This document shows, one piece after another, positions 5,243-61,327 of a DNA stretch of 64,000 bases. The position numbers were made by a program, and so were the translations under genes. Numbering within the stretch: the stretch's first letter is position 1; every line of letters begins with the position of its first letter. Below the pieces are notes generated by a model that had not been told where the DNA came from, searched no databases, and saw nothing but the letters and a program-made list of their open reading frames with translations. Origin of the DNA: Lytechinus variegatus. Lineage: Eukaryota; Echinodermata; Echinoidea; Temnopleuroida; Toxopneustidae. The stretch covers positions 18,376,225 through 18,440,224 of the forward strand of contig NC_054748.1 of NCBI RefSeq assembly GCF_018143015.1, in the 5' to 3' direction.

Positions 5243-8200
5243 ATGGTGGTCAAAACAGCAGGATTAGAACCACAACAACAGCCATATCCAGCAATGTCTC
5301 AGGGAACAGGACCAAGTGTGGTAAGTTGCATGAAACTTTCCAACCAACTTGGTTTGGTTTAGTTTTACTCACGGTATAAGAATAAACAATACATTCTACA
5401 AATATGGAAACTAACTACAAACAATTGTCATGATGTAAATACTTTAAAAGATACAATTGGATCACTCTAACCATATGTACAACTTTTAGAACAAACTTTA
5501 CAGGAAGTCTTTTTTTTTTTGGGGGGGGGTATTCAATTTATTGATTAATGATTTTCCAATGAGACTTGAATTTTTTTTTGCTTTTCTAGAAGATATACAC
5601 TTAACTACATTTGCGTAAAAATTTGCACCTAATTTCAACATTCATGACTTGCTTTACAATCATGCTAATTCGAAATTTGTTTAAGTAGCCCTGAAAATGC
5701 ATACAATTTAGCTCCCTAATTAGCTACAGGATGTGAACAATTTTATTATTTAATTTTTAATAAACCTTAAAATGAAACAGAGATGCAAAGAGCTTGGACA
5801 GTCCAGTGTGCAGTGAAACAAAGCCTTATTGTGGGGATGATTTCTATGAGTGACTGAATTGATAATTGTGTAGGATCAATTGTAAAATCTGCTCCACGAT
5901 CAATCACTACGCTGTATGTTACAGAGTCCAGGGTTGAAGACACATGACCCTGTCTTAATGGAGAAACTTACATCAGGGGACCCGTAACATAAAGCTTAGA
6001 GATTGATCATGGGACTAATAATAATAATGTGACTTTATAAAGTGCCAAATCCACTCTGTAGAGTGCTCAAAGTGCATGAAGAGATGAGAGTTTAATAAAA
6101 AAAGTTTTTTTAAGATTTGTTAAAGTCTCGACAGAGGTACATTTTTGTGTCTTCAGGAAAGCTTTTCCACAAAGTTGGGCATGCAAAAGCAAATAATTTT
6201 TCCCCCAAAGTTTTTTAAACTTTTGTAATAACAAGGTGGCCAAAAGTGGATGAGTGCAAAGACCTACTTGGTCTGTAGTAATAAATAAATGAAAGACTGT
6301 ATTGTGGTGTTGATCCAAGAACACTATGAAAAGCAAGCAGCAAAATCGTAAAGATAATCCTATTTTTGATCGAGAGCCAATGATTTCTACGATTGATTGC
6401 ATTGATAATTGTGTATGATCAATCGTAAAACTCAGCCCAGCAATCAATCCCTATGCTTTGTGATACAGGGTCCAGCATTTCTTTCCTTCCTGTGATTTTT
6501 GTTTTCTTCTTTTCAATGTAGTCCACATCATACCCACATGAAGTTATTGAGAGTGAACAGGGCTTTTGGCAGCACTCCTATGCACCTTATGCAGTAGGCT
6601 TCGGCTGTGCAGTATTTGTTATATTACTAGCAATTGTAAGTAGTCTCATGGACTTGGTCCTTATGCAGTCATTAATATTAAGAGGAGATAGTGAAGTCAT
6701 TGAAACTCCCTGCAAACTCAAAAGTTACACTTATGACATGAAGTATTTCCTTACTATTAAATTATTAATTAATTTATTTATATATATATGTATTTATTCA
6801 CTCATTCATTTACTTATTCATTTATTTATTTATTCATTTATCCATTCGTTTTTTTAATCAATTTATTCATTTATTTAGTCATATGAACATAAATAGCAAG
6901 GTTAGTAATTGTACAAAAATAAACTGTAAAAAGCATGATATCAAGAAAGAAATGCATAATTAGATGAAGAGAATCCTAAAGTGCAGATAGAGCTCATATG
7001 TAAGGAGCACAATCCTGCCATAATGAATTAAATGGGGAGCTGCTCAAGTAAATTATGTTCATGTTTCCCCTGAAAACTTTCTCACACATTGTTATCTTCA
7101 CCCAGGAGTAGTTCAAATATGCTTTGTCAATAATCTTCTGTGTAATCTTTCTTTATAGATATGCTACTGTTGCTGCAAAGCATGGCGCGCCAAGCATTTA
7201 CGGGACGAGGAGAAACGAATATGTATGTATCCACCCATCAAACCAGAAACTCAAGAGGGTCAATTAATCCAACCAGAGTCCGGCTATACGTATGCATCGC
7301 TTGCTCGTAGTGAACCTATTAAGATAAAGACCAAAGGACTACAAGAAAGGTTGGTAGATTCAAAATTTGAAATGATCGAGACCAAAAAACTTTATGCATC
7401 CCTAGAGTTTAATTGAGGGATTTGTACAGTTACTAACTAGTTCAATTTACACAATACGTATTATTTGCCCTGGATTTTTTAAATCATTTGTTTTCTGTTT
7501 ATTAATTTGTTATGTCTCTTGTATTTATCTTCATTATGTTTTATACCTCATTTGGAACTTTCTTCCCAGTCTTTTCAGTTTTTTGTCTATTCTCTTTAAA
7601 ATATCTTTGGTTCACTTGCTAAAAGCTGTGCTTTCAGAGTTGTCTTCTCCACAAAATAACCAATACAAATTTACTTACTTGGATTTACTTGGCTGTTGTG
7701 ACATAACGTAAGGCAATATGCTTATGTTCCCCCTCATTGCTTTTCTTATCTATGGTAAGGTTTGTGAACAATAATATAAATGATGTGGAAGAGGTTCATC
7801 GTGGTGAAGGATTGAGTAGAAGAAATAACCAGTTGTCTCACGATGTAGCAAACGTAGTAGGAAAGCGACGTTTCGTCTGCAAGCTGCTAGACTTCGTCAG
7901 GCAATGAGCAAAGACGCTGCTGCACACGGGTTATATAGCGTCGGGAGCTATTGTCTGGCTCCACTCGGGCGTGAGCCGCGCTGTGATTGGCCGGAGCCGC
8001 TGGCCAATATAAATCATTTTATAGCAAGTTCAATCCTCTCCTTGGTGCTTTTGACCTTAATTTTTGTCACCATGTGTTTAACATTTTGTATTTGTTTAAT
8101 AGGAGAAGCTCTTCTCAGTCTCTAACACTTGACATCAATGCTCCAACAGAAACAGTCAGATGGGTAGCCTCACCTCCAAGAGAAAGGTATGTGATAGTAG

Positions 8201-11200
8201 CTCAAACTATTTCTTTTTAATGTATATTTAATAGCTTAAATAATGATTTATAAAACAAAATTTAATACTATAATTTGAGAATATTTATACTGCTCTTTAA
8301 TTTCTCAAAAAATACATCAATGTAAAATAATATGAGCAATATTCGATTTTAAGGTATGAAGTCTCTTGCCATGTAACACAAATCATTGCAGTTTACCGTA
8401 GATTTTGTTTTACAAATGATTGCATTGGTTACAATGTACAATTAATAATTTGTAATATTGGACCTTGATATTTAATCCTGTTTTGTTTTATACGCAGCTC
8501 TGTACAAGAATACTTAGAGTCAGCAGGCAACAGAATGACGAGAAAACAACTCAGAAATTCAATTAAAAATTTCCGTGCCCTCCATGAAGAATTCTGGGTA
8601 AGTCAATGAAACAAATGATGCACAGCTGTGTCAGTGACAATGGAGCCCACCCTGGGGTATTACAGTGACCCTCACCACTAACTTAAATTCAGATTTGTGC
8701 ATTATTTGTTTTATGGGTCTCATGTATGAGTTGTAGATGTCAAATCCCCTCCGGACTTCCTCATTCCAAACTTTCCACTGAATAATGAAGAAATAACTAC
8801 ATCTTCCTTTCTATTATGGCATCCTCAGTGTATAAAAAGCCTTGCTAGACTGCCTTCTTATTGTAAGAACCTATATTTTTTTATTTTAAATTTTATTTTA
8901 AATTTCATTTGTTCTAAAAGTTTAAATCTTGATATTGTCCTGATTTTATCCCATAGGACATTCCAATGAACCATCCAGAGAGTGTTGAGGTCCCAGGTTC
9001 AGCGGCGAAAAACAGGTATAGCACCATACTACCAAATCCACAGACTAGAGTCTCACTTCCACCGATCAGCGGCGATCCACTCTCTGATTACATCAATGCA
9101 AATATCATCAGGGTAAGATGATAGATGATGATGATGATGGTGATGATGATGATGATGATGATGATATGATGAATTGATGATGATGATGATATGATGAATT
9201 GATGACGGTGATTATAATGATGATGATGATGATGATAATGATGATAATAACAATAGTGGTGGTGAGGATGATGATGATGAGTGTATGATTGTGTAAATCA
9301 TGCCATCAACATACCCATATTAGTCATGCAATCAGTAATTCATCTTGCCATCAATTCTCTCATATGCTATCACCATTATGTCCAAGGAATCTGATATCAA
9401 GTATATATCCATTAACCAATCAAACAATCAATAATAACATCAATGATGCAATTGATGAAATTATTACATCATCATTCATTTGATTACCCAGATATCTGCT
9501 TTCCTGATATCCAGTTGATCTTTAATGCAATCAATGAGGTTATTATGTCTTCATTTATTTGATTACCCTAACATCAGTTATGCTCATATCCAGTTGATCA
9601 TCAATAGAACAGACTCTCCCTAAAAATAAGTACATCTAGAAACCTCTATGTCATATTCATGAAGTGCTTTATTTTTCTTGCAGGGGTATGATAGAGAGCC
9701 CAATGCTTTCATTGCCACCCAAGGCCCAATGGCTCACACTCTTGCAGACTTCTGGAGGATGATCTGGTTTACCAATGCACCAGTTATCGTCATGGTAACC
9801 AAAATCAAAGAGAGGAAAAGAGTGAGTATTCCTCAAAGCTGTCAAACATCTCATACAATAACACAAATATCACTTACTGTGTAATGTACAGTGAAGACCT
9901 AAAAGAAAAATAAAATTGATTCAAATGCCAACCAGGAGTTTTGACATATTTTTCAATGTTTTAAATGTTTATTGATAAATACAAGTTAAAGTTTTTGGCC
10001 CTTATATATACTACTACTTCAGTTAAATCTTGCAGATTTTTTTATAATGTAAAAAACCCCTAAAGATTTCATTAGCTTAACTATTTAGGCACTTGTGGAT
10101 ATCACTTTATTCAGTATGTCAAAATTTCTCTCTTCATGTAGAGTACAATTTTTAAAATTCATATAAATTGCAATTTTTTGTTGTTATGATGTTTTATGTT
10201 TTTTAGTCCTTGAATGGAATGTTAAGAACCCACTGCACTATTCATATAAGAGTAGGGAGAAACCCTGGTGTAGTGGTCCACCTGCATTCCCCCCAATCAG
10301 TTATATGAAGAGGAGAGACCTGTGGGTCATTGTGATTCAGTTCGCTTTTCGCCTTCCAGGCACAGTTGACGCCAAACAAATAATAATAACATGAAAAATT
10401 TATAATAAAATATGTTAATCTCTTTTTCAGAGTAAATGTGAGATGTATTGGCCTCAAGGTCAAGGTTTCTATGGTGATATTGATGTGACGGTGGAAGAAA
10501 CAGTTCCCAAAGATGATTATATACTTAAAATATTTACATTGAAGGTAAGCTCTGCTTTTAATAAGGGTTTTCATAGTCAAAGTTTATTGGCTCATTTTCT
10601 AGCATCTATCTAAAGCAGCTTAAAACTGTGTACACTAGAGCAGTAACAGACTATTCCATATATTACTTATTCTTACATAAGAATTTTTTATTAAAAAATA
10701 TTTCTATCTCTGTTATGGCCCTTGGTATGAATATTTTTTTACCGTGTCCTGTGTTGTGGCCTCCAGTTTGCACTTCTGTATTTGGTTTTTTGCTTGGAAT
10801 TTAGTTGTATATTTCTATGATGTCATCCCTGAACTCTTCTGTATGCTCCGTTCTCATTAACTGACCCACAAAGAAAATATTTTGGCCTCCTCTGATATTG
10901 AAGGTTGATGACTTAGGCATTGTTAAACGATCAAATTGTGAACAAATTTCACATCACAGTATTTTCAATTTCTTACACTGACCTTGTTTGTGCACAGTAC
11001 TTAAATGAATGTCGTCAGGTATTGCATTACTGGTACACTGCATGGCCAGACAATAAACCTCCCGAGAACCCAGTGACCCTGCTGGAAATGATACGTGAAG
11101 TGGAATTCAGCAGGATAGACCCTACGCTTCCAAGAGGACCAGTCATAGTCCATTGCAGGTATGTAGACCTGGTCTTGCTGCTTAATATGGTCTTGGTTCA

Positions 11201-13072
11201 GTAATAAATATTGCATATAAATAGATAGACATTAAGATGATGTGATAAATAGATATTAATCAAAATAATGATGTGTAGGTTAGAATAGGATTTGTTTATA
11301 TAAAAAAATCTTGTAAACCAGGGCATTATAAAACCAAGTTTATTATGGGTAATTACATAAATAATAATTATATGCAATCAATCATAGAAATCAAGTGTAT
11401 GATCAATCACTAAGCTTTGTGTTATGGGCTCGTACGTGGGATTCCAACCCATGTCACAGGCATGACCAGCTTTGTGGTGGCAGCGGTGGGATCATTATCA
11501 TACCATTGGAGTAAACCTTATGCATTAATTGACATCATCTTTGCTGTTGTAACACCAAACTTAGCCATCGATCAGGGAGCTGATAATAATGATTAATTAC
11601 ATTAATAATCATGTGCAATCAATAATTTGATTTAAGCTTATGATCACTAAGCTTTGTGTTATGGGATCTTATAAGTGCTTAGTGGTGGCAGCGGTGGGAT
11701 GAATATCATACCCCTGGAATAAACCTTATGCATGGATATCATTGTGCCTCCATCTTAGACACTCAATCCATTGCCTTGCATGCATAGGTGATCTGCAGCT
11801 GGCACATCTCTGACTACTCTCATTACTGTATATGTAGGCTGAGGGAGGTCGCACGCTTATGATATCACATGCGAAAGATTTATGACCAACAATAGAAACC
11901 AGAGTCTCTCTCCATTGTAACTAATATGAAACATTGTTGATGTTTTACTTTTCAGTGCTGGACTAGGTCGGACAGGGTGTTACATTGCAATCACTATTGG
12001 TATGAGACAAATGGATGAGGAGAGCATGGTTGATATACTAGGCATTGTATGCCAGATCAGACAAGATAGGTAAGAACTGTGTTATTACTATTTATCTACC
12101 TCTAAAATTATTATGGATGGGGAAAAAGAAGGAGGAGCAAGATGAGGGTGTGCAGAAATAAGGAGGTGGAGGAAGAGGGAGGAAGTTGGAAAGAATGAGG
12201 AAGAAGGAGAAGGCTAGGAGATAGGAGGTGATTAATATAAGTTTAATACGAGGGATTATTTGCCAGATCACAGGATAGGTGAGAAGGTACCATCACATAA
12301 TGTACCAGTTATCCTGGTAAAAGAAGAATAGGTAGGAGGAGAGGAGGAGGAGAAGAATTAGGAGAGGAGAAGGAGGAGGAGAGAAGGAGAAGAAGGAGGA
12401 GGAGAATAAGAAGGAGGACAAAAAGAGGGAAGGAGAGAAGAAGGGGTAGTGGAGGAGGAAAAAGATAGAGGGTAATGAAGAATAATGAGATTGAGATAAG
12501 TTAATGTACTTGACATTGTCCATCAGATCAGATGAGAAAGGTGCTAATTATTTAACTTGATGTATCACATGAACATCCTGATGGAAAAAATAGGAGGAAA
12601 AAGAGGAAGGAAGAGAAGGAGACAGGATGAGTGGGAAAGGGCATGAGTCCAGGATTATAAATTGAAACCTAGCTATCCAATGTATCTTCCTTCTCAAACA
12701 GTTTGATTAATTACTTAAGTTGTTCTAGTATTATATTTTCTTATTCAATTGCTTTCTGATGATTTATTTATGTTGATAACATAAGTTTTGTAGTATCATA
12801 ATTTTCCTCTATTTATCTATTTATGTTAACACACATTGTAGTAGGATTAGAATTTTCTCTATGTTTTTATGTTAATGTAGAAGTATCTTAATTTTTCTTT
12901 ATTTAACTGTTGTGTTAATTACTAATGGATGAATAATATAATTTTTTTCTATTTATCTGTTTACAGAGGAGGAATGATCCAAACGAACGAGCAGTATGAA
13001 TTCATTCATCAAGCTCTTTGCCTCTATGAAAAATGTCTGCCACGAAGAGAATCTATCACAGGGACAGAGTGA
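5243..13072 (+). CDS. PTPRR-like: KIM-type receptor-like protein tyrosine phosphatase (PTPRR/PTPN5/PTPN7 family), 11 coding exons
   Basis: Coding exons: 5243-5320, 6522-6635, 7159-7349, 8103-8186, 8498-8597, 8957-9112, 9684-9821, 10431-10544, 10998-11158, 11956-12069, 12967-13072. All junctions are GT-AG and all phases fit, giving about 451 aa ending in TGA. The enzyme removes phosphate from tyrosines, and the family acts on MAP kinases. Residues about 47-67 form one membrane segment, followed by a Cys cluster (CYCCCK). Residues 124-139 read [16 protein letters not shown], a near match to the kinase interaction motif of STEP and PTPRR, with an RRxS site (Ser131) where PKA acts in relatives. 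The catalytic domain covers about 190-445: pTyr loop KNRY (Tyr210), WPD loop (Asp343), P-loop [10 protein letters not shown] (Cys378), Q-loop Gln422 and Gln426. The ATG has G at -3 and +4. No signal peptide is seen, so a short N-terminus is inferred; extra 5' exons are possible. Which vertebrate paralog is closest cannot be told by eye. Confidence 0.93.
5810..6480. repeat. Degenerate repeat with paired GATCAATCG-type segments
   Basis: Two similar segments, at about 5835-5935 and 6378-6475, share TTGATAATTGTGTA, GATCAAT and a final CAGRGTCCAG. They lie in intron 1 of the phosphatase gene. Related wording recurs at 11340-11690. It looks like the remains of an inverted-repeat element. Confidence 0.4.
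6765..6885. repeat. ATTTATTC-type microsatellite
   Basis: Low-complexity stretch of ATTTATT/CATTTATT words in intron 2 of the phosphatase gene. Open frames across it are artefacts of the repeat. Confidence 0.85.
7866..7901 (-). ncRNA. Hammerhead-ribozyme-like motif of Penelope-like element type
   Basis: Read on the minus strand, CTGACGA is followed by a short hairpin (GTCT paired with AGAC) and then GAAACGTC. This is the CUGANGA-stem II-GAAAC core order of hammerhead ribozymes, which Penelope-like retroelements are known to carry in their terminal repeats. It sits in the intron that splits the phosphatase KIM. No element body was found, so it is probably a solo remnant. Activity is not claimed. 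Confidence 0.5.
9122..9262. repeat. GAT trinucleotide microsatellite
   Basis: Nearly pure GATGAT repeats begin right after the splice donor at 9113 of phosphatase exon 6. Interruptions include GATGAATTGATGAT. Confidence 0.9.
11335..11760. repeat. Two diverged direct copies of a dispersed repeat
   Basis: Two segments about 240 bp apart share AATTACAT, TGCAATCAAT, ACTAAGCTTTGTGTTATGGG, GGTGGCAGCGGTGGGAT and AAACCTTATGCAT. They lie in the intron between phosphatase exons 9 and 10. The shared words also appear near 5900 and 3960, so this is a dispersed family. Its class is not determined. Confidence 0.55.
12118..12640. repeat. Purine-rich GGA/GAA tract
   Basis: Imperfect AGG/GAA-rich sequence in the last intron of the phosphatase gene. 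Fragments resembling CCAGATCA and GATAGGTGAGAA recur three times, suggesting local duplication of the nearby exon-10 end and donor (CAGATCAGACAAGATAG then GTAAGA). Confidence 0.6.
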
Positions 13073-24852: not shown

Positions 24853-27800
24853 TCAACTAAATAAGGCTCTAGTCCTCTTGAAATGTGCTGTGCCGCCCTC
24901 ACTTGACATTCTCCTTACAGCTTCCCGTATGTGTTTAGGCTGTAGAGGGGGTACATCACCCCACTGTTCCATGACGTCCAGAGCATGTTCAACGATCTCT
25001 CCGACATACACCTTGGCAATACCTGACATAGCAATCACAACGTTCTGCGACACAGAGCTTCCTGTGATGGACTGCATGAAGCGTTTGATGGCAGCTTTCG
25101 GAAACGACGATCGTCGGAACATCTCGTAACGGTTGAGTTGTTCCTCTGAGAAGGCCGAGACAAGAATTCTGTAAAATTAAAATCAAAGATATAATAATAT
25201 GGTCCATTTACATAGCGCAGCTACTATAATTGCATATACTCTACTGTGCTTAATACTTGGTATCATATTATTACCACGGCTGTAGCTGAGCCGCCATATA
25301 GGCGCTAAAGCATTCAAGGAATAAAACCTACCAGGTATCCATTCACCTCACCTGGGTTGAGTGCAGCACAATGTGGATAAATTTCTTGCTGAAGGAAATT
25401 ATGCCGTGGCAGTGATTCGAACCCAAGTCCCTCTGACTGAAAGATAAGAGTCGTAACCACTAGACCACGACGCCTCCATATCAATATTAGCGGTAAAATA
25501 AAACACTCGCTGCCTTTAAGACTTCACAGACTTCACAAATCAGCTTATTGATTCAAATCAGAATTCTTTTAACCTTTACTGAATATGCTTTGTACAGAGA
25601 TCATCTGGTACCAGTAGGCACTAAGTTAAAGCTTGGCACGAGAACAATGGGCTGATATGATTATAAACATTGATCATAACATGCAATCAATCTTACAAAT
25701 CAACTATGCTGTTTTGTTACGGGGCCCTGAAAAGCATTAAAACATACAATCTATTGCAGAGGAGGAGTGGGAAAATACTTATCACTCAAGTCTTTTAAAT
25801 GATTTGGTTTACCTTATGTGAAGCACTACATTTACTAGAATTTATATTAAATTTTGTTACATACATTGTTTGCTTGCCTCTCTTATTCCTATTCCAGGGT
25901 TCCCAGCTTTTCAAAATTAGAAAACAAAAAACAAAATTCCCTGATTTTTCCCTGATGAAGTTTAAAAATTTCCTTATAATCATTTAAACCCATTCCCAGT
26001 ATTGCTAGTTTTCGAAGTTGTTGCAGTGAATTACATCAGTATAAGAACAATAATGTAAAACTAATTAGCATCACCATAACCATTTATTCAATGGGTGTTG
26101 TTTTGATATGCAACAAAATATAACAGAGTCTGACTGACTACCATGCTTTCGACTTTTTGGCTGATCAAAATTCCCTGAATTTTCCGTCATTTGAGGTATT
26201 TAAAAAAAATTCCCTGATTTTTCCCTGACAGGAAAAAAGTAAAATAATTTTTCCTGATGGGCTGGGAACCCTGTATACTTCATCAGAATGAAACCTATTT
26301 ATCCTTTTATCATTACATCATGTTCATTTATGTATTATACACACTGAACAGCAAGGATAGCCTTATACCTTGAAACCTATTTATCCTTTTATCATTACAT
26401 CATGTTCATTTATGTATTATACACACTGAACAGCAAGGATAGCCTTATACCTTGGTCACATTTGATCTACGGCGGCCGTACGGCGAGTCGACAACAACCG
26501 TTTTATAAACTTTATTTCAAACCACCTATATAATTGGTACAAGAAAATGTTGAAACGGCTGTTTTCGACTCGCCGTACGGCCGCCGTAGATCAAATGTGA
26601 CCAAGGTATAAAATGAATTGGCTCAATGAATACAGGTATTGGTCAGTGCTGAGGTGATGAATACCCTTTTTATATTCTTTGCATCCACCTTGATCTTTGT
26701 TAACCTTTTTATTCTCCCCTTTGTCATGGATTTGAACAAAAGTATTCATATGATAAAGAATTTAGCGACAGATATATCCATGTCTCAATATTCGCATTAA
26801 ATGTTACATTTTATTCCAAAATCAGGTCGCAGATCAATCGTAAGGAGTGCAGAGGTGGTTGAAGGCCAAGCATATTAGAAGTACACATTTCAGTGACATT
26901 TGTTTTGGAGTTATAACCCTCAATAACTTTCATCTTTATTATTGTGTTGTTTGCAAAATATTTCATTTATTCATGTAAATACAGGAAAATCAGACCCACT
27001 TTTGCTCATTTTATGCTTGATTTGGAAAAAATCGAAACAATGGAGAGAATTATTGCTTTTAAACGTAATTTGATGAACGTGCATAAAAAATTGAATATTT
27101 TGTTTCCAAAATGAACCATTTATTTGAATTTGTTTGAAATGTATGATATTTTTAAAATTATGATGTATCTGTGCATGTGGTACTTGTGTATAGAATGAGT
27201 TGAGAAAAAAATCTTGAAAAAAAAAAGAAAATGTGCAGACAACCTGAGAAGTAAACAATATGCTAGTAGACCATGTGGATACAAACAACTGCACTTACTG
27301 CATTTTTTGTCTTTCTTCTGCATCAAGTCTTGCTTTCTTGCGGTAGGCCTCCTTGACTGGATCAACTGGAGCCGCTGGAGTCTCTTCTGAGGGATCCTTG
27401 GAGCCTCCTGGAGCATCTTTCTCCTTGTCTCCTGTATCTCTACCGAGGCTCCCTGATTCTCCTTGCTCTCCTTCTGTATTGATTACAAAGGTCACATGTT
27501 GGAGACGTTAGTCGCTATTCTGAAGTCGGGTTTAGTTTAAAATCTTGTTAAAAATAAAAAAAATTTGTTCAAAGATGGAGAGCAAAATGTTGCACAACCA
27601 TATAATAACATTACACATTTAATTCATCAGTTAGTTCGTTTTACAATAAGATCAATTATAACTTTCTGGGAATAATAACTGAATTAGTTTATTCACCATG
27701 GATTACATAATGAAAGAGCATGATGAACACGAGAATGATTCAATGTTAATAAATTGTTAATATTTTTGGCTTCCCATAATTTTAAAAGAGTGAGAATAAG

Positions 27801-41649: not shown

Positions 41650-43080
41650 ACAAAAACTTATCAAATATCAGATATATGGGCCCGTATATGGGAAAGAGAC
41701 TGTCTGTATAAAGACAAAGCTAGTCAAACCTAGATGATCTGCATATGTAACAAAAATGTATACCGGTTGGCAACTCGGCAGAAAAACAGCCAGACTTACA
41801 GATAAAACACAAATAGTCACTATTTTGTCAATATCCACTCCTAGTTTTTCATTATTTGTTTCTGTCTTTTCATAGTCATTAAAAAATCTAACCACTCAGA
41901 ATGCGTTTCCCTCCTCCTCTTCCTCACAAAGGAAGAAGAGGAACGGTCATCAATGACAACGAGCGAGATATCAAGATGATATCACTCGAAGTCCGCTTCG
42001 CGCTCAGAGGGAAACGCTTCGACTCTTCATCGTGGTTAGGTGTGGGGACACTAGTGTGTCGTAAGAGAACGATACATACTATAGAAATGATCCCTAAAAG
42101 TATGATCTTAATTCACGATTTGAGTTATGCAATTTATAAATAATAAATACTACTAATGAAAAACAGTTACTATTTCCGCAAATCCACATTTTAATGAGCA
42201 TAAATTTCGCTTTAGACAGTCATTTCAAACGCTAAACTATGTTGGAGATACACATAAATACTAAGATATATTCATTATAAATAGTGTTTAGGGAAATGAT
42301 AAGTGTTTGGGTGAAATTATTTGACAAAAAGGGGTAAAAATCTTTTGGAAATCGCCATAGGGCTGCTACCTTGGCTGTCTCATGAATATTCATTTTGTAG
42401 TGTAAAGATTCAGACCGCTTTTATTTTTTACCACTGTTGATAAATTTTTAGATGCCTTAATTTTCAGAGCAAATTGTCATAATTTTTTATTTCCTAAAAT
42501 AGAAAAATGCTAATCGAACGAAATATTTCAGGATTTGAAGATAGAATTATTTTAATGAAAAATTTTAAAATGTATAGAAAACTGAGATAAATTGGGGATA
42601 ATCCCGGGATAATCCTTTGATGCTGATCGATTTTATTATTAGGAATTCCTTTAGAATCTTGATCCTAGGTAATGAAAATAGTTGAATTGGGAAAATTCAT
42701 AGAAAAAAAATGATTGCTTTGAATCACAACGATGAACGATTTTATACTCGAAATATATTGCAATACGATACAAACGTTGTTGACATAAAATATGGTCTGA
42801 GGTCAAAGACTACAAAGAAACGTCACGGGCTATAAATAATCATATGATGCAATCGATTGGAAATAAATACGGAAGTAAACACGTTGACCATATTCCTCGC
42901 TGTGTATACAGCACGATCTCAATGCATGCATGTACATGTTGCATTGCCATAGACGAGATGGTGCAATACTCGATTCGACATTCCAGGGACAGGGTTTTTC
43001 TCTGTTTTGATGGCAGTGGCAGTTCTGGACAGGAGCATGTATATAGTCGCTTGTTTCACTAACTGAAAATCATTTAGATG
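41650..43080. other. Gene-free AT-rich stretch
   Basis: No exon or complete repeat recognised. An inverted pair of CGCTTC-type words (ACTCGAAGTCCGCTTCGCGC and GGAAACGCTTCGAC) lies at 41985-42020. Confidence 0.45.
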
Positions 43081-43422: not shown

Positions 43423-44883
43423 ATGGCATCTCCAGAAAGAACTATCGCTAAAGATTTCATGGCCTTGATGAAGAACATCAAGAGCTTTTCAAATGGCCAG
43501 GCTGTTGTCACAAAGTGGGATGATAAAAATCTGGGAAATTTTGAAGTCACTATCTCTCCCAACGATGGATGCTACAAGGAAGGGGAGTTTGTATTTGAGG
43601 TAAGTTAATATATTATAAATAATAACTTGTTAAACTTTGTCAGGGTTTCAAACGATAATGGCAACACTCTCTAGCATTTCCAGTTGATTGTATAATTCCC
43701 CCAACTTAATAATTCACCCTAATAATTGTTATTTCAGTGATAGTGATACAATTTTCATGAGAATGCACTTCACAGCTGAAAAATCTCAATCTTTAGTATA
43801 CTGGCTGGTAATGGTATACTTGTAAATTTTATTGTTTTGCCTTTACCAATCAGAACGTCTTTTATTCATTCCATTTTCTAGATTTCCATGGAATCCTGCG
43901 ACGATCTCCCAAGACTGAACTGCAAGACTGCCATCTACCATCCCAACATCGACACCATCCAGGATCCTGACGGGGAAATATGCATCAATCTCTTTGACCT
44001 TGATATGTGGAACACGAACTGCAGCATGCAGGATGTCGTCCAAGGTCTGCTCTTCTTGATGTACAATCCTAACCTTGAGGACCCTCTATGCGGCGCAGTG
44101 AACTGTTCTTCCATGGAAGAATTCGAAGAGGATGTTCAGACGGCTATAGCTGGTGGAAGGGTCGGGGACTATCTGTTTCCGGTGAACCCCCGATATGCAA
44201 GACTGCATCCTGCTGCGGATGAGGAGAAGAAGGAGGAGGAAGATGAGAAGGTGGGGAAGAATGAAACAGTTAATGGAGAGGATGAAAGACCAAAGGATGG
44301 AGAGAGGACTGGATTGATAGAAGAAGAGAAGAATGGAGATAAAGATGAAAGGACAGGAGCGAATGGATGTAAGGAAGACCTTGAAAAGAAGTCAGAGGGC
44401 AATGCTTTCCTTGAGGAGAGATACTTCGGCATCAAAGAATACATCCATGATGATGAAGATGATTATTGTGAAAATGAAGAGGAGGATGAGGAGGAGACTG
44501 ATGATTCCTCTGTGTTAACTGATCTTGATGATCCCGACAATGACGACACTGACGTCGTTCACGATGAGGAGCTCTTTGAACTCTTTGACAAGGTTGATGA
44601 AAGCATTGATGATGAAAACCGCAAGAACCTGGACAGCACCGACGTTGTCAGCTGGAGCAAAATGGTGTACGGGGCTGCAAACAAATCACACGTTGACAAA
44701 GTCGGAATACTAATCGAGGACGTGCCTGCTGTTGAAAACTCTTCTGAAGTGGCTAGTAAAGAAGCTGGAAATGCTGCTGGTTCAGCATTGACCAGAATTC
44801 CTTCAGGGATACAGAGACCCACCGTTACATCAAGGTTCTACTGTGCCCTACAAACACGTGCCTTCAGACGATGGTTGGTTTGA
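43423..44883 (+). CDS. UBE2M-like E2 conjugating enzyme with long acidic C-terminal tail, 2 exons
   Basis: Exons 43423-43599 and 43882-44883, GT-AG, phase 0; 392 aa, TGA stop. The start has A at -3 and G at +4. Residues about 6-168 form a UBC fold. NFEVTISPNDGCYKEGEFVFE and YHPNID match UBE2M (NEDD8 E2, UBC12) most closely, as does the end GGRVGDYLF. HPN is at 79-81 and the likely catalytic Cys is Cys93 (GEIC), so thioester transfer looks possible. N81 to C93 is 12 residues apart, about four more than in UBE2M. The N-terminal docking peptide of UBE2M is absent. WNTN after the Cys and a later DVVSW in an acidic tail recall UBE2U, so it may be a UBE2U-type relative. Residues about 172-300 are Glu/Asp-rich, and the last 30 turn basic. 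The substrate modifier (NEDD8 or ubiquitin) is not decided. Confidence 0.85.
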
Positions 44884-54170: not shown

Positions 54171-57100
54171 TTAAAACTCGTCATGTCTGGTCAGAGCTTC
54201 GCCGAAGTCTGTTGCCTGGCTTCCCACGAAGAGGTCATATTTATCAAGGATTTCAGCTTTTGTCAGCCTCTTGTCCTAAATATAATGGAGAAAAGAAATA
54301 TTTGAAGGATTTGTTTAATTTCATAAATACAATATTTTGTTTCTCATGCAGCTCTTGCTGTAATCATAGTTTGTAAACCTTTAGGTCACACACAAAAGCA
54401 CCTGAATTTCTTTAAGCTAAGTGGTTGCTTAATACTGATGCCTATAAGCGTCCCAAGGTATGCTCAATTTAACATTGAAAGCTATGGAGTGAAAACAATC
54501 ACCTCTTTGTCTCATTGATGTGCAAGTAATGATGATTATGCAATACAATGTCAGGTCTTTTTTAAGCAATAATAATACTCTGTCCTACATGTGCTTCTCT
54601 GAGTTGTTTAGCGATCAAGTGTGATAGTTTTTGTTTTTGCCAATTTCATGATTTCAGTCGTACAGCAGGCCCAGATCTAGATCTCTCTCCCTCTATCTAT
54701 ATATATATATAAACATGTATACAGTATATAAGCCATCAAATATCTATTTTGCTGAGGAGGACACAAAAATGCATGGACCCAGATGACCATTCTGAGGTGC
54801 TTAAAGGGATGGTCTGGGCTAAAAATATTAATATCTAAATAAATAGAGTAAAATTCACAGAGCAAAATTCTGAAAATTTCATCAAAATCGGATAACAGAT
54901 AACAAAGTTATTGAATTTTAAAGTTTATAAATATTTTGTGAAAATAGTTATGCACATCGTCATGGATATTCATTAGGTGGGCTGATGATGTCACATCCCC
55001 ACTTTTCTTTTTCTTACGTTATTACATGAAATCATTGTTTCGATTTTTTTATACATGTGTAAATGATGTGTCTCCATTATGATGAAATAAGTTGCGGCAA
55101 TAAATAACTAATGCACTTAATCAGTTGTCAATCCAATTGTTTTAGTTCTTGGTAGAAAATTTTTGAATAAACCTAATTTCATATAATAAAGTGCAAAAGA
55201 ACAAGTGTGAGTATGACATCATCAGCCCACCTTACGAATATTCATGAATACATGCCTCAAACTCTTTAACCGGAATAATGCAAATCCTTGAAATACAATA
55301 ACTTTGTGATTTGTTATCCGATTTTGATCTAATTTTCAACATTTTTCTTTGTGAATTATTTTCTATTTATTGGGATAAATATCTCCAGCCTGGACCAAGA
55401 GGTGGAGTCAAAATTCTTTTGACTCCACCTCTTCTTGCTAGACGGTGGATAGCAGGCTTCGTGATACCTTGGACCATCCCTATAATTACTGTTTTAGTGG
55501 CCCAAACATGGAGTAGTGTGTGAGTGCAGTGCTTTGTAACCGAAAGGAAAAGGCGCTATATCAAATGACCTTTAGATTGTATTATACCAACATTTAGCAT
55601 CAAATGGTTTTAAAGACTTTCTCATGAAATCAGTGTTTACAACATTCATTCCTCTTGAAATAACTTACGTGATCAGCATCTGATTCCATTACTAAATGTT
55701 GAGCTTCGGCTTGGGCGTGGTCATAGTCTTGCGGGAGGATCCACTGACCTATCTCTTCTTTGTCCATCTTATGATCGCCATCTTTGTCGCGGAAAGCAAA
55801 GAACTGCTCACGCTCAGTCTGCACCCAATCAGGCTCTGCACCGCCCTTCTCGCGCTCACTCTTGGGCCACATGTCACCTGTCAAGATGAAATGATTAATA
55901 AACGTGTGACATTTCTTTATGTTTAAAGGCAAATAGGTTCATTGATTTGACTTATAAAAATCTGAGCAGCAAGTCCAACTCATAATCTGTTTGAATTTAA
56001 AGGAGAATGAAACCACTGGAACAAGATTGCTTGTGTGAAAACAGAAAAATCAAAGAAACAGATCAACAAAAGTTTGAGAATAATCGGACAAATAATGAGA
56101 AAGTTATGAGCATTTGAATATTGCGATCACTAATGCTATGGAGATAGCAAATTGGCAATGCGACAAAGATGTGTGATGTCACTTGAACAACTCTCCCCAT
56201 TACTTTAGTATATATTTCACTTGAATTGCCTCTTTTATCACATCTATCCATAGATCATGTGTTCTTTCTACATGAGGGCATGTAATACATATTTTTAAGA
56301 ATACATCTTGGATAAAGAGTTTGTATCATCATAAGAAAAAGTAAGAGACATTTTGAGGGTATTTTATAGTCCATCAAAGGGAAAGTTGTTCATCAGTGAC
56401 ATCACACATCCTTGTCGCATTGCCAATGGGAGGATCTCCATAGCATTAGTGATTGCAATATTCAAATGCTCATAACTTTCTCATTATTTGTCCGATTTTT
56501 CTCAAACTTTCTTTATTCTTATTCTTTGATTTTTTCTGTTTCTACACAAGCCTCTTCGTTCCAAAGGTTTCATTCCCCTTTAAAAATTATAACTATGCCT
56601 AACTTTAAGTTAAATGTGCAATGCATAATTTCCCCCTCCATTTGCAAAACATTACATTCCATCAACAATATTGTTAACCATGATGAAACAAATCACAACA
56701 TAAGCATTTATAGGATTATAAAACCAAATTTTGCAGGGAAATCAATAGGTAAATAAAGTTTAAACTCATGGTAAGAATAGATTTCATGTGATGCCGAGGA
56801 ACTGAACAAATAGGCCTTTATAGAATTGAAGGGGATGTTAACCCTGAAGAAAAGTTTGTTGCAAAAATAGCAGAAAAAAAAATAATTAAAAATATTGGTG
56901 AACGTTTGAGGAAAATCCATTTAAGATCAAAGAAAGTTGTAAGAATTTTAATTTTTGGATTTGTGACATCATAAACAAGCAGTTGCCCCATATGTTATGT
57001 AATATAAAATACATATTTTTTAATGGTTCGTGATGATTTAGTTTAGTTTACTTTTTAGTAACGGGTTTGAAATGATCTGTTTATTGATATATTGAAGGTA

Positions 57101-60100
57101 CTGTAAAAAATAATTTAAATTTTCTGAGAAAATTACATTTCACTGATTTTTTATTACCATACGATATGTAGGAATGCTGCTCGCATATGTCACAAATTAA
57201 ATAATTTAAATTATAATAACTTTTTTTATTCTTTAATGGATTTTTCTCAAACCATGGACAATATTTTTAATTTTTTCTGCTACATTTAACAATAAACTTT
57301 CTATCAGGGTAAACTTCCCCAATTAATCATTCTTAGGTGATTAAAGTGAACAGTGCACATCAATCTTACCAATGTATTCATCAATGTCAACAAAACCATC
57401 TCCATTCTGATCAATATCCTCCATGGTTTCCTCGACGACGATTTCCCTCATGTGAGCCTTCTCCTCGGGATGTAGAAATCCGACAAACTCTTCGTAGGTC
57501 AGGTCACCGTCACCGTCAATATCAGCGACCTTCCATCTCTTCTTGTCACGTCGGATCATAGTGCTGAAGTCCATGTGTTCATTCTCTTGCATTCTTGAAA
57601 GCTCTTCCTCTGTATGGCCAAAGAATACAAGATTATCAATGAATAGTTTTCTAAGCTCAGAATCAATCTACTGTAGCTCCTCCAATTGGTAACAATAACA
57701 AATTTTCAATTAATTTCATAAATTATTTAAAGTAATGATTAAAGCAAGATTATAAAAGTTATGAAGTTACAAAATATATAAGTTTCCGATTTGAATTTTC
57801 AAACAGAAATTACAGAAGATCAAAAAAATACTTAAGCTCTTGAAATTGGCAAGTTGTAGATTTCATACCCTTAAAAGATAATATAGATTTAATTTACAAC
57901 ACAAGTCAAAATGAATGATAAAAGTGATTTTGTAGCAAAAGGGTGATTATATTGTTTTTATTTAGAGTATTTAATGATTAGCTCTCTCTAAATGATAAAA
58001 AACAGAAGTCAACTAAAATAAACAATCTTGTTTTGTCCAATAAGGGCATAGAGTATTTGATCTTGGAGTCCGTCAGAATATTCACTGTGAAGAAAAGGGT
58101 TTAGAGAAATAATATTTTCATCGAATAACGCAAAAATCCATTATTTCTTCCTTCCATCTATCTTTCCATCCATCCATCTATCCACCATTGTTCATCTTTC
58201 CATCCATCCAAATCATCCATAGACCCACCCATCATTTCATCCATCCAGTCATCCTTTCATTTATCTATCCATCCATCCATCATTAAATTCATCCACCCAT
58301 CCTTACATTCATCCACCCATCCATCCATCTATCTATCCATCCATCCATCCATCCACCCATCCATCCATCCTTCCACCCATCCATTCATTCACCCATCCAT
58401 CCATCCACCCATCCATTCATTCACCCATCTATCTACCCATCCATCCATCCACCCATTCATCCACCCATCCATCTATCTATCCATTCACTCATCTATCTAT
58501 CTATCTATCAATCCATCCAAACAAATGTTTCTTCAGACTTTCCTCTATCAATCTTTCAATTAATTTATCTATCCATCCATGAAACTCTAACCTAATTGTT
58601 GTTCATCTGCTCCATAAGTCCCTCGCATGAATTCATTCCACTCCACCTTTTTGTCCTTATTTGAGTCGACAGAAACCCAGCGCTCTGTAACATCCCTGTC
58701 GATGGCTTGCCTCTGCAAATTGGACACATTTTCCATAACTAGTCTTGTTCAAAGACCACTTGATTTAAGTAATGACAAAATGCAACCATTATTAATATGT
58801 CTTTTGTGCATTCATGAATTTTGAGACAGAATTGTCATTAACATGAAAATAATTGTTTGAAGAATCCACAAAAAAATTGAATGTTTATTTTGGGGTACCA
58901 GTATGCAACAGAAGAATTCTACGAGTAATTTGTTGTCAACGTAAAGAAAAATATTCGGTCTGGAATTTCCAATTCCATTCAAATCACAGCAGTTGCACAA
59001 GAGAATATCAAAACGGTTGCATTTCAACATTTAAGTATCACAGAAATCAGAAATTTCCCATGATAACTTCTTCAGTCCCGCGCCTAGTATTAGATGTTAG
59101 TAACAAACACCAAGCAAAGTGAATGTTAGTGTTAAAAAGAGCTATTTGTGGTGTGTGTCTCACCAGATAAACTGCTGTATGTGGTCTGATTATATTCTTG
59201 CCATGTTATTTTGGGATCTCCATCTACATTGTGACCCTTCCATTGTCTGTCTACGTCCTCGTAAATATATCGGCTCTGTTTGCAAACAAAAAAGAAAGGG
59301 ACAAAACAAATGGAGTAAGTAATGTTTTTATTGATGTCCAAGGACCAAAAGAGAGCCAAAAATCAAAGTCTAATTGATCCTGGTCATTTTATTCCTACCA
59401 GAATATTTTTTTTTAATTTCAAACATAATTTTCTTCTCAAGCAAATATTGAAATTCTATTAACAAAGCCTCTTCAAAACAGTGCATAAGCCTGATTTTTT
59501 TATTTTTCATTTCCCAAATTTCTTTTCCAGAAAAAAAAAAAAATCATTGGGCACTGTTTTAAATTTCTATGATTTAGAAGATTTAAATTGGCATTGTATT
59601 CTGTTGACTGAAGTATAATTGTCTATAGATAACTTTTTAGAGGGAAAACATCCATAATACAGATTTATCTAACATATTGACAGAACTTTACCATCATGTA
59701 TGAAAGAGTATTCAAATCAATAACGATGAATCTAAACAAATTATTCTTCCATTTTTGTTTTTTTAATATTGATAAATGGCAAGAAAATACAGAACAGACA
59801 CTTTACAAATGGCTTGATTGAGTTGTTAGTAAAACCATGCAGAAATATTCACAAACATGTAGGCTACTTTGTAATAAATTGAAGCAAAGAAAATATCAAG
59901 CTGAAGAAACCATCTTGTAATCTTTAAAGGCTTTCAAATAATTAAATAGAATGAGGGTTGATTACTATTATGGGATTTTTTCTTGCTTAAATTTGAATTA
60001 TCTTCAAATTGACAATTTGATTTGCTTGATAGTGTCAAATACTCAGATGCATAGTTTTTTTATATCATGCACTGTTTTCACATGAACCTTGGTTGTTGTG

Positions 60101-61327
60101 TTGCTGACTTGCGAATTGTTTTATTATTTCAGTCTGTCAAAGAGGTATTCAATTACTTAGGATGAATTTCAAAAGCCACCTGGTTGCAAGACTAATAACC
60201 TTTATAATCTCATGTTATTACTCCCAGACGAACTTCCTGTGTTGCAGTGCTTTTGTTTTCCTTTTATATTTTCAGCTGACCACATCATTTCCTTTGTTCT
60301 CAACCATCCCAGCTTGCAGGTAATGAATATACATGATTAGCCACATCAACAAAGAGTACATTATATATAATTAAAGTGTTCCTTCTTTAGATAAATCTAC
60401 TATTTAGAACCACGCTGTATGGCAGTAGGCCCAGTATTATACAGGATCTTGCATCCTATAAAGATTATATAATTTTCAGGGAGAGTGGGTTGTTAAAAAG
60501 GGGGGCATTCTTTGAAAGAAAAATTAAGCAGAATAAACAAAATATATTGTAAGTCAAGCAAAACGTTTAAATGCCCTCATGTTATCATGGAAATTACAAA
60601 ATTCATGCAATGTGAACTCATACCTCATGCAAGTTGAATTAAATAGTTTGCATAAAATATGTAGATTATTTTCTTCTATAAGATCATATCTCAAAAATAC
60701 ATACTTTATAATATCCAGTCTATATTATATGTTGCTATATGGAGAAATTCTTGTTATTAAAACTTTATTAAAAGTATCACAAACACCTTATTGTTCATCT
60801 TATAAAGAGTTGCGATTGATCCGATCAATCGCAACTATGGGTGACCAGCAATGTCAACATCTATTATGCGTGTTTGTTCAAAACATTTTCCAGCAAGAAG
60901 CCATGAGGTATATGCTTCTCTTTGTTTTCAAAGGACATTGTGCAAATTTCCTGAAGAAAAAATTGTGACACTGATGGATTTCCATGATTACGATTGATTG
61001 GATCAATCGTAACTCTTTGTAATTTCTCATTGTAAAACAGGGTCACCATCCAATAAAAAAGATTTTAGTACCAGTATTCCATGATACAACTGGTTATCTT
61101 TTATTCATCTCTTAATATTCTTTGTTTTAACACTCTTTTTTATTTGAAATATTTTCCATCTTACTTTGCAATTTTTTATTTAATTTGATACTTTTCATTG
61201 TGTTTTCTATTCATGGCACTATTCATTTGGCAGTATTTTACTTACCTGTTGTAAAACGATCCAATCTTTCAATTCTTCTTCCGTGACAAATCCATCCTTG
61301 TCTGCATCAATCTTCTCAACAATTTTC
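54171..61327 (-). CDS. CALU: Calumenin (CREC family EF-hand protein), 3' part with two alternative EF-hand-2 exons
   Basis: Exons in transcript order: 61327-61246 (EF1), 59275-59164 or 58712-58592 (EF2 alternatives), 57609-57370 (EF3, EF4), 55877-55669 (EF5), 54275-54171 (EF6 and C-terminus). All GT-AG with phases that fit; 248 or 251 aa after the first split codon. Calumenin is a calcium-binding protein of the ER and secretory pathway. The end [18 protein letters not shown] is almost identical to vertebrate calumenin, and HDEF is an ER-retrieval signal. Loops: [48 protein letters not shown] and [12 protein letters not shown] all keep acidic residues at 1, 3 or 5, and 12. The first exon starts inside a codon, so the signal peptide and N-terminus lie further upstream. 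No such exon was found up to 64000, where LINE remains and microsatellites occur. Confidence 0.92.
54804..55491. mobile_element. MITE, GGGATGGTCTGGGC family
   Basis: Left end AGGGATGGTCTGGGCTAAAA with AATTCTGAAAATTTCATCA; right end has matching complements and TTGGACCATCCCT. The middle shows ATTCATTAGGTGGGCTGATG and its inverted partner. It lies in calumenin's last intron and contains the hairpin at 55397-55433. Related fragments are at 33640-33800 and 36000-36110. Confidence 0.78.
55397..55433. repeat. Perfect hairpin, 17-bp arms with 3-base loop
   Basis: AAGAGGTGGAGTCAAAA, loop TTC, then TTTTGACTCCACCTCTT, with no mismatch. It sits near the right end of the surrounding element, between CTGGACC and CTTGGACC. 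Confidence 0.9.
55997..56584. mobile_element. MITE, GGAGAATGAAAC family, copy 2
   Basis: Ends TTAAAGGAGAATGAAACC and GGTTTCATTCCCCTTTAA are inverted, with arms about 200 bp long. It lies in the calumenin intron between the EF3/4 and EF5 exons. TTAA at each edge may be part of the end or the target. Confidence 0.85.
58141..58580. repeat. CATC/CCAT tetranucleotide microsatellite
   Basis: About 440 bp of CATCCATC with CACC and TATC variants. It ends just before the donor of calumenin alternative exon B (58592), on the intron side. Confidence 0.95.
58592..58712 (-). other. Calumenin alternative EF-hand-2 exon B
   Basis: 121 nt, starts phase 0 after TTTGCAG and ends phase 1 before GTTAGA. Encodes [28 protein letters not shown] and [12 protein letters not shown]. 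The loop is [12 protein letters not shown], with Asp at 1 and 5, Asn at 3 and Glu at 12. It aligns to the same region as exon A. Confidence 0.85.
59164..59275 (-). other. Calumenin alternative EF-hand-2 exon A
   Basis: 112 nt, starts phase 0 after GCAAACAG and ends phase 1 before GTGAGA. Encodes [20 protein letters not shown] and [17 protein letters not shown]. This is the closer match to vertebrate calumenin (RWIYEDVERQWKGHD). The loop is [12 protein letters not shown], with Asn at position 1 and Pro at position 6. Confidence 0.88.
60795..61042. mobile_element. MITE, GATTGATCCGATCAATCG family, copy 2
   Basis: Left arm GAGTTGCGATTGATCCGATC, right arm GATTGATTGGATCAATCGTA. The interior (ACCAGCAATGTCAAC, ACACTGATGGATTTCCAT) matches copy 1. 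It lies in the intron between the EF1 exon and exon A. Confidence 0.8.

Follow-up and report, generated by a model that had tools for sequence, protein, structure and literature searches.

Two tandem EF2 exons, probably used one at a time, in a calumenin gene of the sea urchin Lytechinus variegatus

The window analyzed here is a stretch of 64,000 nucleotides from the sea urchin Lytechinus variegatus (C9:18376225-18440224 of an 869.6-Mb genome in 33 contigs). A calumenin gene occupies positions 54171-61327 on its minus strand, and everything from EF1 through the HDEF end lies inside the window. Several other features can be recognized in the same stretch, including a full-length match to U3 snoRNA (41891-42109, minus strand; Rfam RF00012, 169 bits), a TAFII28 (TAF11-like) histone-fold open frame (24856-25176, minus strand; Pfam E 7.3e-40), a 333-aa open frame (43882-44883, plus strand) in which a ubiquitin-conjugating fold, represented by its C-terminal part (Pfam E 1.8e-11), is followed by what by eye is a long acidic stretch, and a partial protein-tyrosine phosphatase domain in an exon-like open frame (10917-11204, plus strand; Pfam E 3.8e-09).

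All of the calumenin exons are on the minus strand. The first coding exon (L003:230-4) lies from 4 bases past the window edge; it encodes the N-terminal part, MKSSLIVCMYLALLIAVTLAKP...SPEESRNRL, and a split Gly codon, and judged by eye its start looks like a signal peptide. The EF1 exon (61246-61327, 82 nt), placed by its AG/GT borders and frame, begins with the last base of the split Gly codon and ends in phase 0 at the donor CAG/GTAAGT, directly upstream of either exon A or exon B in the transcript. Exon A (59164-59275, 112 nt) is the canonical EF2 exon and carries a calcium loop and the N-glycosylation sequon NQT; exon B (58592-58712, 121 nt) is an alternative EF2 exon that has a loop, lacks the sequon and has the weakest splice sites in the gene. 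Both run from phase 0 to phase 1, and they are separated by an intron of 451 nt (58713-59163). Exon C (57370-57609, 240 nt) begins inside a split codon, follows A or B in the transcript and encodes EF3 and EF4. As read from the exon translations, exon D (55669-55877, 209 nt) encodes EF5 and the start of EF6, and the last coding exon (54171-54275) ends in RHDEF and TAA. HDEF is given as the calumenin ending in one paper (PMC10044922). The count of six EF-hands was made by eye from the exon translations; Pfam EF-hand_1 passes at four stretches, both in the A form (E 2.4e-18) and in the B form (E 9.6e-21).

Two features of the introns deserve mention. A degenerate (TCCA)n microsatellite (58149-58519), UGGA-type on the transcript, lies downstream of exon B, from which 72 nt of intron separate it, and an influence of this array on splicing is possible but unproven. 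In addition, the intron between EF1 and A contains an inverted repeat (60800-60865 and 60957-61022) with 66-nt arms that are 76% complementary, which may be the remnant of a small mobile element.

A second calumenin gene with the same exon plan and the RHDEF ending lies 5' of the window gene, also on the minus strand, at about 69.4-76.1 kb when the window numbering is continued past its edge (L003 and L004; approximately G000:C9:18445.6-18452.3 kb). About half of its residues are identical to those of the window gene (N-terminal part 40/75, EF1 8/27, EF2 against A 18/37, C 42/80, D 31/65, last exon 20/32). Its EF2 exon of 112 nt is A-type, sharing 18 of 37 residues with A and six with B, and it has a sequon, NIT, at the place of A's NQT. 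The intron after its exon D contains partial repeats of the end of that exon and its donor region (L003:6187-6231 and 6047-6094, minus strand), one of them frame-shifted. Two calumenin copies on one scaffold are reported for Strongylocentrotus purpuratus (PMC3034685), so a tandem calumenin pair is probably common to urchins.

The preliminary description of this DNA had placed exons A and B at the positions given above and had regarded them as duplicates of the EF2 region; the positions, lengths, phases and AG/GT borders are as it reported them, and the duplication stands as well. In an ungapped alignment, A and B are identical at 10 of 37 residues and 43 of 111 bases. The Smith-Waterman score of B against A is 56, and against EF1, EF3, EF4, EF5 and EF6 it is 22, 34, 31, 21 and 22, respectively. 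None of 5000 shuffles reached B's score against A, and 2118, 57, 207, 2986 and 1053 of 5000 did so for the other five in the same order. The idea that B is a copy of another EF-hand was rejected, EF2 being its best fit. Exon A scores 52 with EF3, nearly its 56 with B, so it is B's nearest neighbor that is decisive and not A's own.

The same pairing emerges from a scan of exon candidates. Mechanical candidates, that is, open stretches of 90-150 nt with AG/GT borders that run from phase 0 to phase 1, number 380 on the plus and 432 on the minus strand of the window. Among them, B ranks highest against A after A itself and its overlaps, followed at 52 by a part of exon C that encodes EF3. When the 3636-nt interval spanning EF1 to C was dinucleotide-shuffled 300 times, no candidate scored above 37 (mean 20.5, SD 4.8). 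A third EF2 copy was considered and rejected, the best other candidate in the intron between EF1 and A scoring 29, within the shuffle range (maximum 37). No second EF1 was found in the introns when the window was searched with the spliced protein at E up to 10.

The same approach was applied to the paralogue, and no B-like exon was found in either intron around its EF2: the 12 mechanical candidates between EF1 and EF2 had a best score of 22, and the single candidate between EF2 and C scored 21. With B as a query, tblastn at E up to 1 returned nothing in the paralogue and two weak plus-strand matches beyond its 5' end. Exon B would have been gained by one of the two genes or lost by the other, and its divergence from the A-type exons of both suggests that it is fairly old or has changed quickly. 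A search of the genome with B returned a single place, B itself, with one candidate scored, which was taken to reject the idea that B strayed in from some other gene; the search also missed exon A, so distant copies would escape it. Other EF-hand loci on C14 and C19 held no clear EF2 relative and hence no outgroup, and none of the stretches that matched a pattern in viral and prokaryote contigs (4 and 24, respectively) was confirmed as a relative.

The reading frame sets the terms on which the two exons can be used. When EF1 is joined through A to C, or through B to C, the frame stays open across D and the final exon until the stop that follows HDEF. When A and B are joined, translation of the visible part would run into a stop after 82 codons, which lies 514 nt upstream of the last exon junction; when both are skipped, the stop comes after 44 codons and 395 nt upstream of that junction. 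By the usual rule, early stops at such distances should lead to nonsense-mediated decay. As far as the frame goes, this agrees with the earlier claim that an intact protein can contain one of the two exons only. One scheme for recognizing mutually exclusive duplicated exons, as set out in PMC3228551, asks for similar length, matching splice-site type and frame, homology, and one and only one exon per mature transcript. A and B have 37 and 40 codons (the default allows a difference of 20 aa), both have AG/GT borders and run from phase 0 to 1, and the score of 56 is 27% of A's self score of 209 (the minimum is 15%, in a scoring scheme that is not identical to ours); on the number of exons per transcript, the frame argument is what bears. 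The sequence thus supports A and B as tandem EF2 duplicates of which an intact protein could contain just one.

Is B merely a chance survivor? B keeps an open frame, AG and GT, the loop ligands, both Trp residues and Thr-Tyr at 10/37 identity to A. Neutral change was simulated by letting A mutate free of selection down to 10 or fewer of its 37 residues, in 4000 runs and with no insertions or deletions, which makes the model lenient. A stop-free frame was left in 388 of the runs, AG and GT in 496 and the loop ligands in 25, and all three together in none, so B is probably used. We infer that B has been under selection. GC content is weak as a coding sign here, as the EF1 exon (0.37) is below the highest intron window sampled (0.40), the sampling having excluded most of the TCCA array.

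The splice sites of the two exons are of unequal strength. On a crude scale that uses approximate donor frequencies, the donors of EF1, A, B, C and D score 12.7, 8.8, 5.4, 7.3 and 8.3, and the 17 bases before the acceptors of EF1, A, B, C, D and the last exon contain 10, 12, 8, 11, 11 and 14 pyrimidines. Of the 64 GT sites scored between A and C, three with no known use rank above the donor of B. Exon A thus has stronger splice sites than B, and its sequence is nearer the EF2 of the paralogue and of human calumenin; for these reasons A looks like the default exon, and B looks like an exon that needs help.

Three ways in which the exons might exclude each other were considered and set aside. 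The first is RNA pairing of the flanking introns: for the three flank pairs, pairing equalled or exceeded that of the real sequence in 24, 39 and 40 of 40 shuffles. The second is steric exclusion, for which an intron of 451 nt between A and B is too long. The third is a distant branch point of the OGDH type, of which the AG-free stretch before the B acceptor, only 24 nt, gives no hint. With no flank pairing and so long an intron, exclusivity would have to rest on regulated choice and on removal of the double and skipped products.

The switch between A and B would change two things in the protein, the calcium loop and a glycosylation site. The loop of A has Asn1, Asp3, Asp5, Pro6, Thr9 and Glu12, and that of B has Asp1, Asn3, Asp5, Lys6, Glu9 and Glu12, which includes the residues at positions 1 and 6 that had been pointed out before; Gly6 is absent from both. 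The B form scores higher than the A form with Pfam PF00036 (72.2 vs 64.7 bits) and with PF13499 (77.1 vs 65 bits), and exon B alone gives weak EF-hand matches (E 0.015 and 0.036, neither reaching the curated cut-offs) and exon A alone gives none. B thus has the more ordinary calcium loop and probably the better one, and a change in calcium affinity between the forms is plausible. AlphaFold has little confidence in its models of the isolated exon peptides (mean pLDDT 57.5 for B and 69.3 for A); each has two helices, and in the low-confidence B model the second helix passes through the expected calcium loop. As to solved structures of the CREC family, none labelled calumenin or reticulocalbin was among the 60 listed of 180 matching PDB sequences, which were calmodulins, troponins and other EF-hand proteins.

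From EF1 onward the A form has 248 residues and a single sequon, NQT in exon A, and the B form has none in that part. A further possible sequon, NLS followed by Pro, is present in exon 1 of both forms, so the choice of B does not remove every sequon, although NLS then Pro is usually a poor glycosylation site. A's NQT is one residue from the probable place of human Asn131. In human calumenin, Asn131 is described as a predicted glycosylation site that is needed for stability, its loss leading to extensive degradation (PMC3325945). The absence of the sequon in B, which the preliminary description did not remark on, may matter as much as the change in the calcium loop.

The explanation that we consider probable is that the EF2 exon was duplicated in tandem and gave two exons used singly, A as the default and B as a regulated alternative, with forms that differ in calcium loop and sequon. 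In this scheme, a tandem duplication within the calumenin gene would have produced A and B, with one in each transcript. A would be spliced in by default, B would be chosen under regulation from its weak 5' and 3' splice sites, and double inclusion or skipping would send the transcript to nonsense-mediated decay. Choosing B would replace the Asn1/Pro6 loop with the Asp1/Glu9 loop and would remove the N-glycosylation sequon beside EF2. The result would be two calumenins of the secretory pathway with different calcium responses and different stability or traffic.

Similar arrangements are known from other genes. For example, PMC9741552 describes tandem duplicated, mutually exclusive exons in ACTN1 and ACTN4 that alter an EF-hand, one version alone keeping calcium binding; however, these are unrelated genes (alpha-actinins), and neither calumenin loop is plainly dead. 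Likewise, exons 4a and 4b of OGDH are mutually exclusive and switch a calcium site (PMC9177970 and PMC7969005), but there distant branch points enforce the exclusivity, for which calumenin B gives no such indication.

The closest parallel is vertebrate calumenin itself. The preliminary description stated that it has mutually exclusive exons (the products are calumenin-1 and -2), and this finds support in PMC5877393, PMC5577920, PMC7969005 and PMC4465641. Single-molecule FISH in MCF-7 cells found human CALU exons 4 and 5 to be mutually exclusive, with about 50 mRNAs per cell containing exon 4, 10 containing exon 5 and about 9 containing neither, so that human CALU is not strictly one-or-the-other on the figures given there; the common probes end at 1188 and restart at 1383, which implies an exon of 194 nt (PMC5877393). 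For mouse Calu, 194 stands beside 'Mutually exclusive' in a table (PMC5577920). The exon pair is drawn in a supplementary figure (PMC4465641), and the human exons are listed as 73 nt apart (PMC7969005). A review describes the human case differently, as two gene copies with a different exon 2 (PMC12516920). The vertebrate and urchin genes belong to the same family, swap the same EF2 region and have one exon per intact protein. They differ in that the vertebrate unit apparently covers 194 nt, EF1 as well as EF2, whereas in the urchin gene EF2 alone is doubled (112 and 121 nt) and EF1 is a separate exon; in the intervening intron, 73 nt in human and 451 nt here; and in the sequon, which both human versions keep and urchin B lacks.

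These comparisons bear on where the pair came from. A and B could descend from the same ancient event as the vertebrate CALU pair, if an intron between EF1 and EF2 was later gained or lost and B was lost from the paralogue. The shared family and EF2 region would suit this, as would the lengths, since the EF1 exon and A together (82+112) make the 194 nt of the vertebrate exon. Moreover, B is slightly nearer to one human EF2 (13/37, on a provisional human sequence) than to A (10/37), which would fit an old split of A and B or the retention of ancestral residues in B. However, the vertebrate unit seems to have included EF1, of which no second copy was found in the introns of the window gene; the human EF2 versions, again on provisional sequences, are closer to each other (21/37) than to A (18 and 13) or to B (13 and 11); and the different intron lengths and the lack of B in the paralogue also speak against a common event, which we regard as unlikely. 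The preliminary description had left the choice between a conserved and a separately evolved pair unsettled; the joint EF1 and EF2 unit, the intron lengths and the paralogue lean toward separate origins, while the human resemblance of B leaves room for an old duplication.

Two separate duplications are the simplest reading, favored but not firmly, of a small and partly provisional sample of sequences. Convergence of this kind has precedent, as PMC9741552 counts 27 orthologous gene families in which the human and fly exon-duplication events are unrelated. We would put forward, tentatively and as somewhat less than an even prospect, that the calumenin EF2 switch arose at least twice: vertebrates would have doubled a joined EF1 and EF2 exon, and the urchin lineage EF2 alone in one of two tandem copies. 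The urchin version would then be a double switch, changing the calcium loop and turning off one N-glycosylation site, and would give secreted or ER calumenins of differing stability.

Whatever its origin, B might serve another end than making protein. It could be a poison exon that is mostly included together with A, the frameshift and decay of the mRNA tuning the level of calumenin and the protein product being rare. The early stop in the joined form is far enough upstream for this, and the weak splice sites of B suit low inclusion. Yet with B as its sole EF2 exon the transcript stays in frame as far as HDEF and the protein scores higher with the Pfam EF-hand profiles, and a poison exon has no need of loop ligands, which together with frame and splice sites survived in no neutral run; we therefore think this role quite improbable. 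Equally improbable, in our estimate, is that B is a relic, a duplicate once used and no longer spliced in. It does have the weakest donor and acceptor of the gene, and no second copy came from the paralogue or from the genome search, whose sensitivity is limited; against this stands everything that B has retained and that the lenient simulation failed to retain. It is very improbable indeed that B is an alternative last exon giving a short EF1 and EF2 calumenin, as GGT TAG in frame after B and the poly(A) signals (AATAAA/ATTAAA) at 57975, 57962 and 57893 would allow, because 2.8 such signals would be expected by chance in 982 nt of this window, against the three seen, and the phase of the B donor fits a join to exon C.

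If B is indeed a regulated alternative to A and arose apart from the vertebrate pair, a single small region of a calcium protein of the secretory pathway became switchable in two animal groups independently. This would point to EF2 as the region worth tuning, and nature would have supplied a clean test in two proteins that differ in 37-40 residues. Convergent exon duplication has been described for many families; six of the 12 common to human, fly and worm are ion transporters, and CALU is not named in the main text (PMC9741552). A luminal calcium buffer would widen that list. Among the literature matches listed, no title or abstract opening describes duplicated calumenin exons in an echinoderm, and the sea urchin gene models of RefSeq or Ensembl may already list both isoforms. 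The coupled loss of the sequon would provide a simple readout for the two forms, a gel shift after PNGase F.
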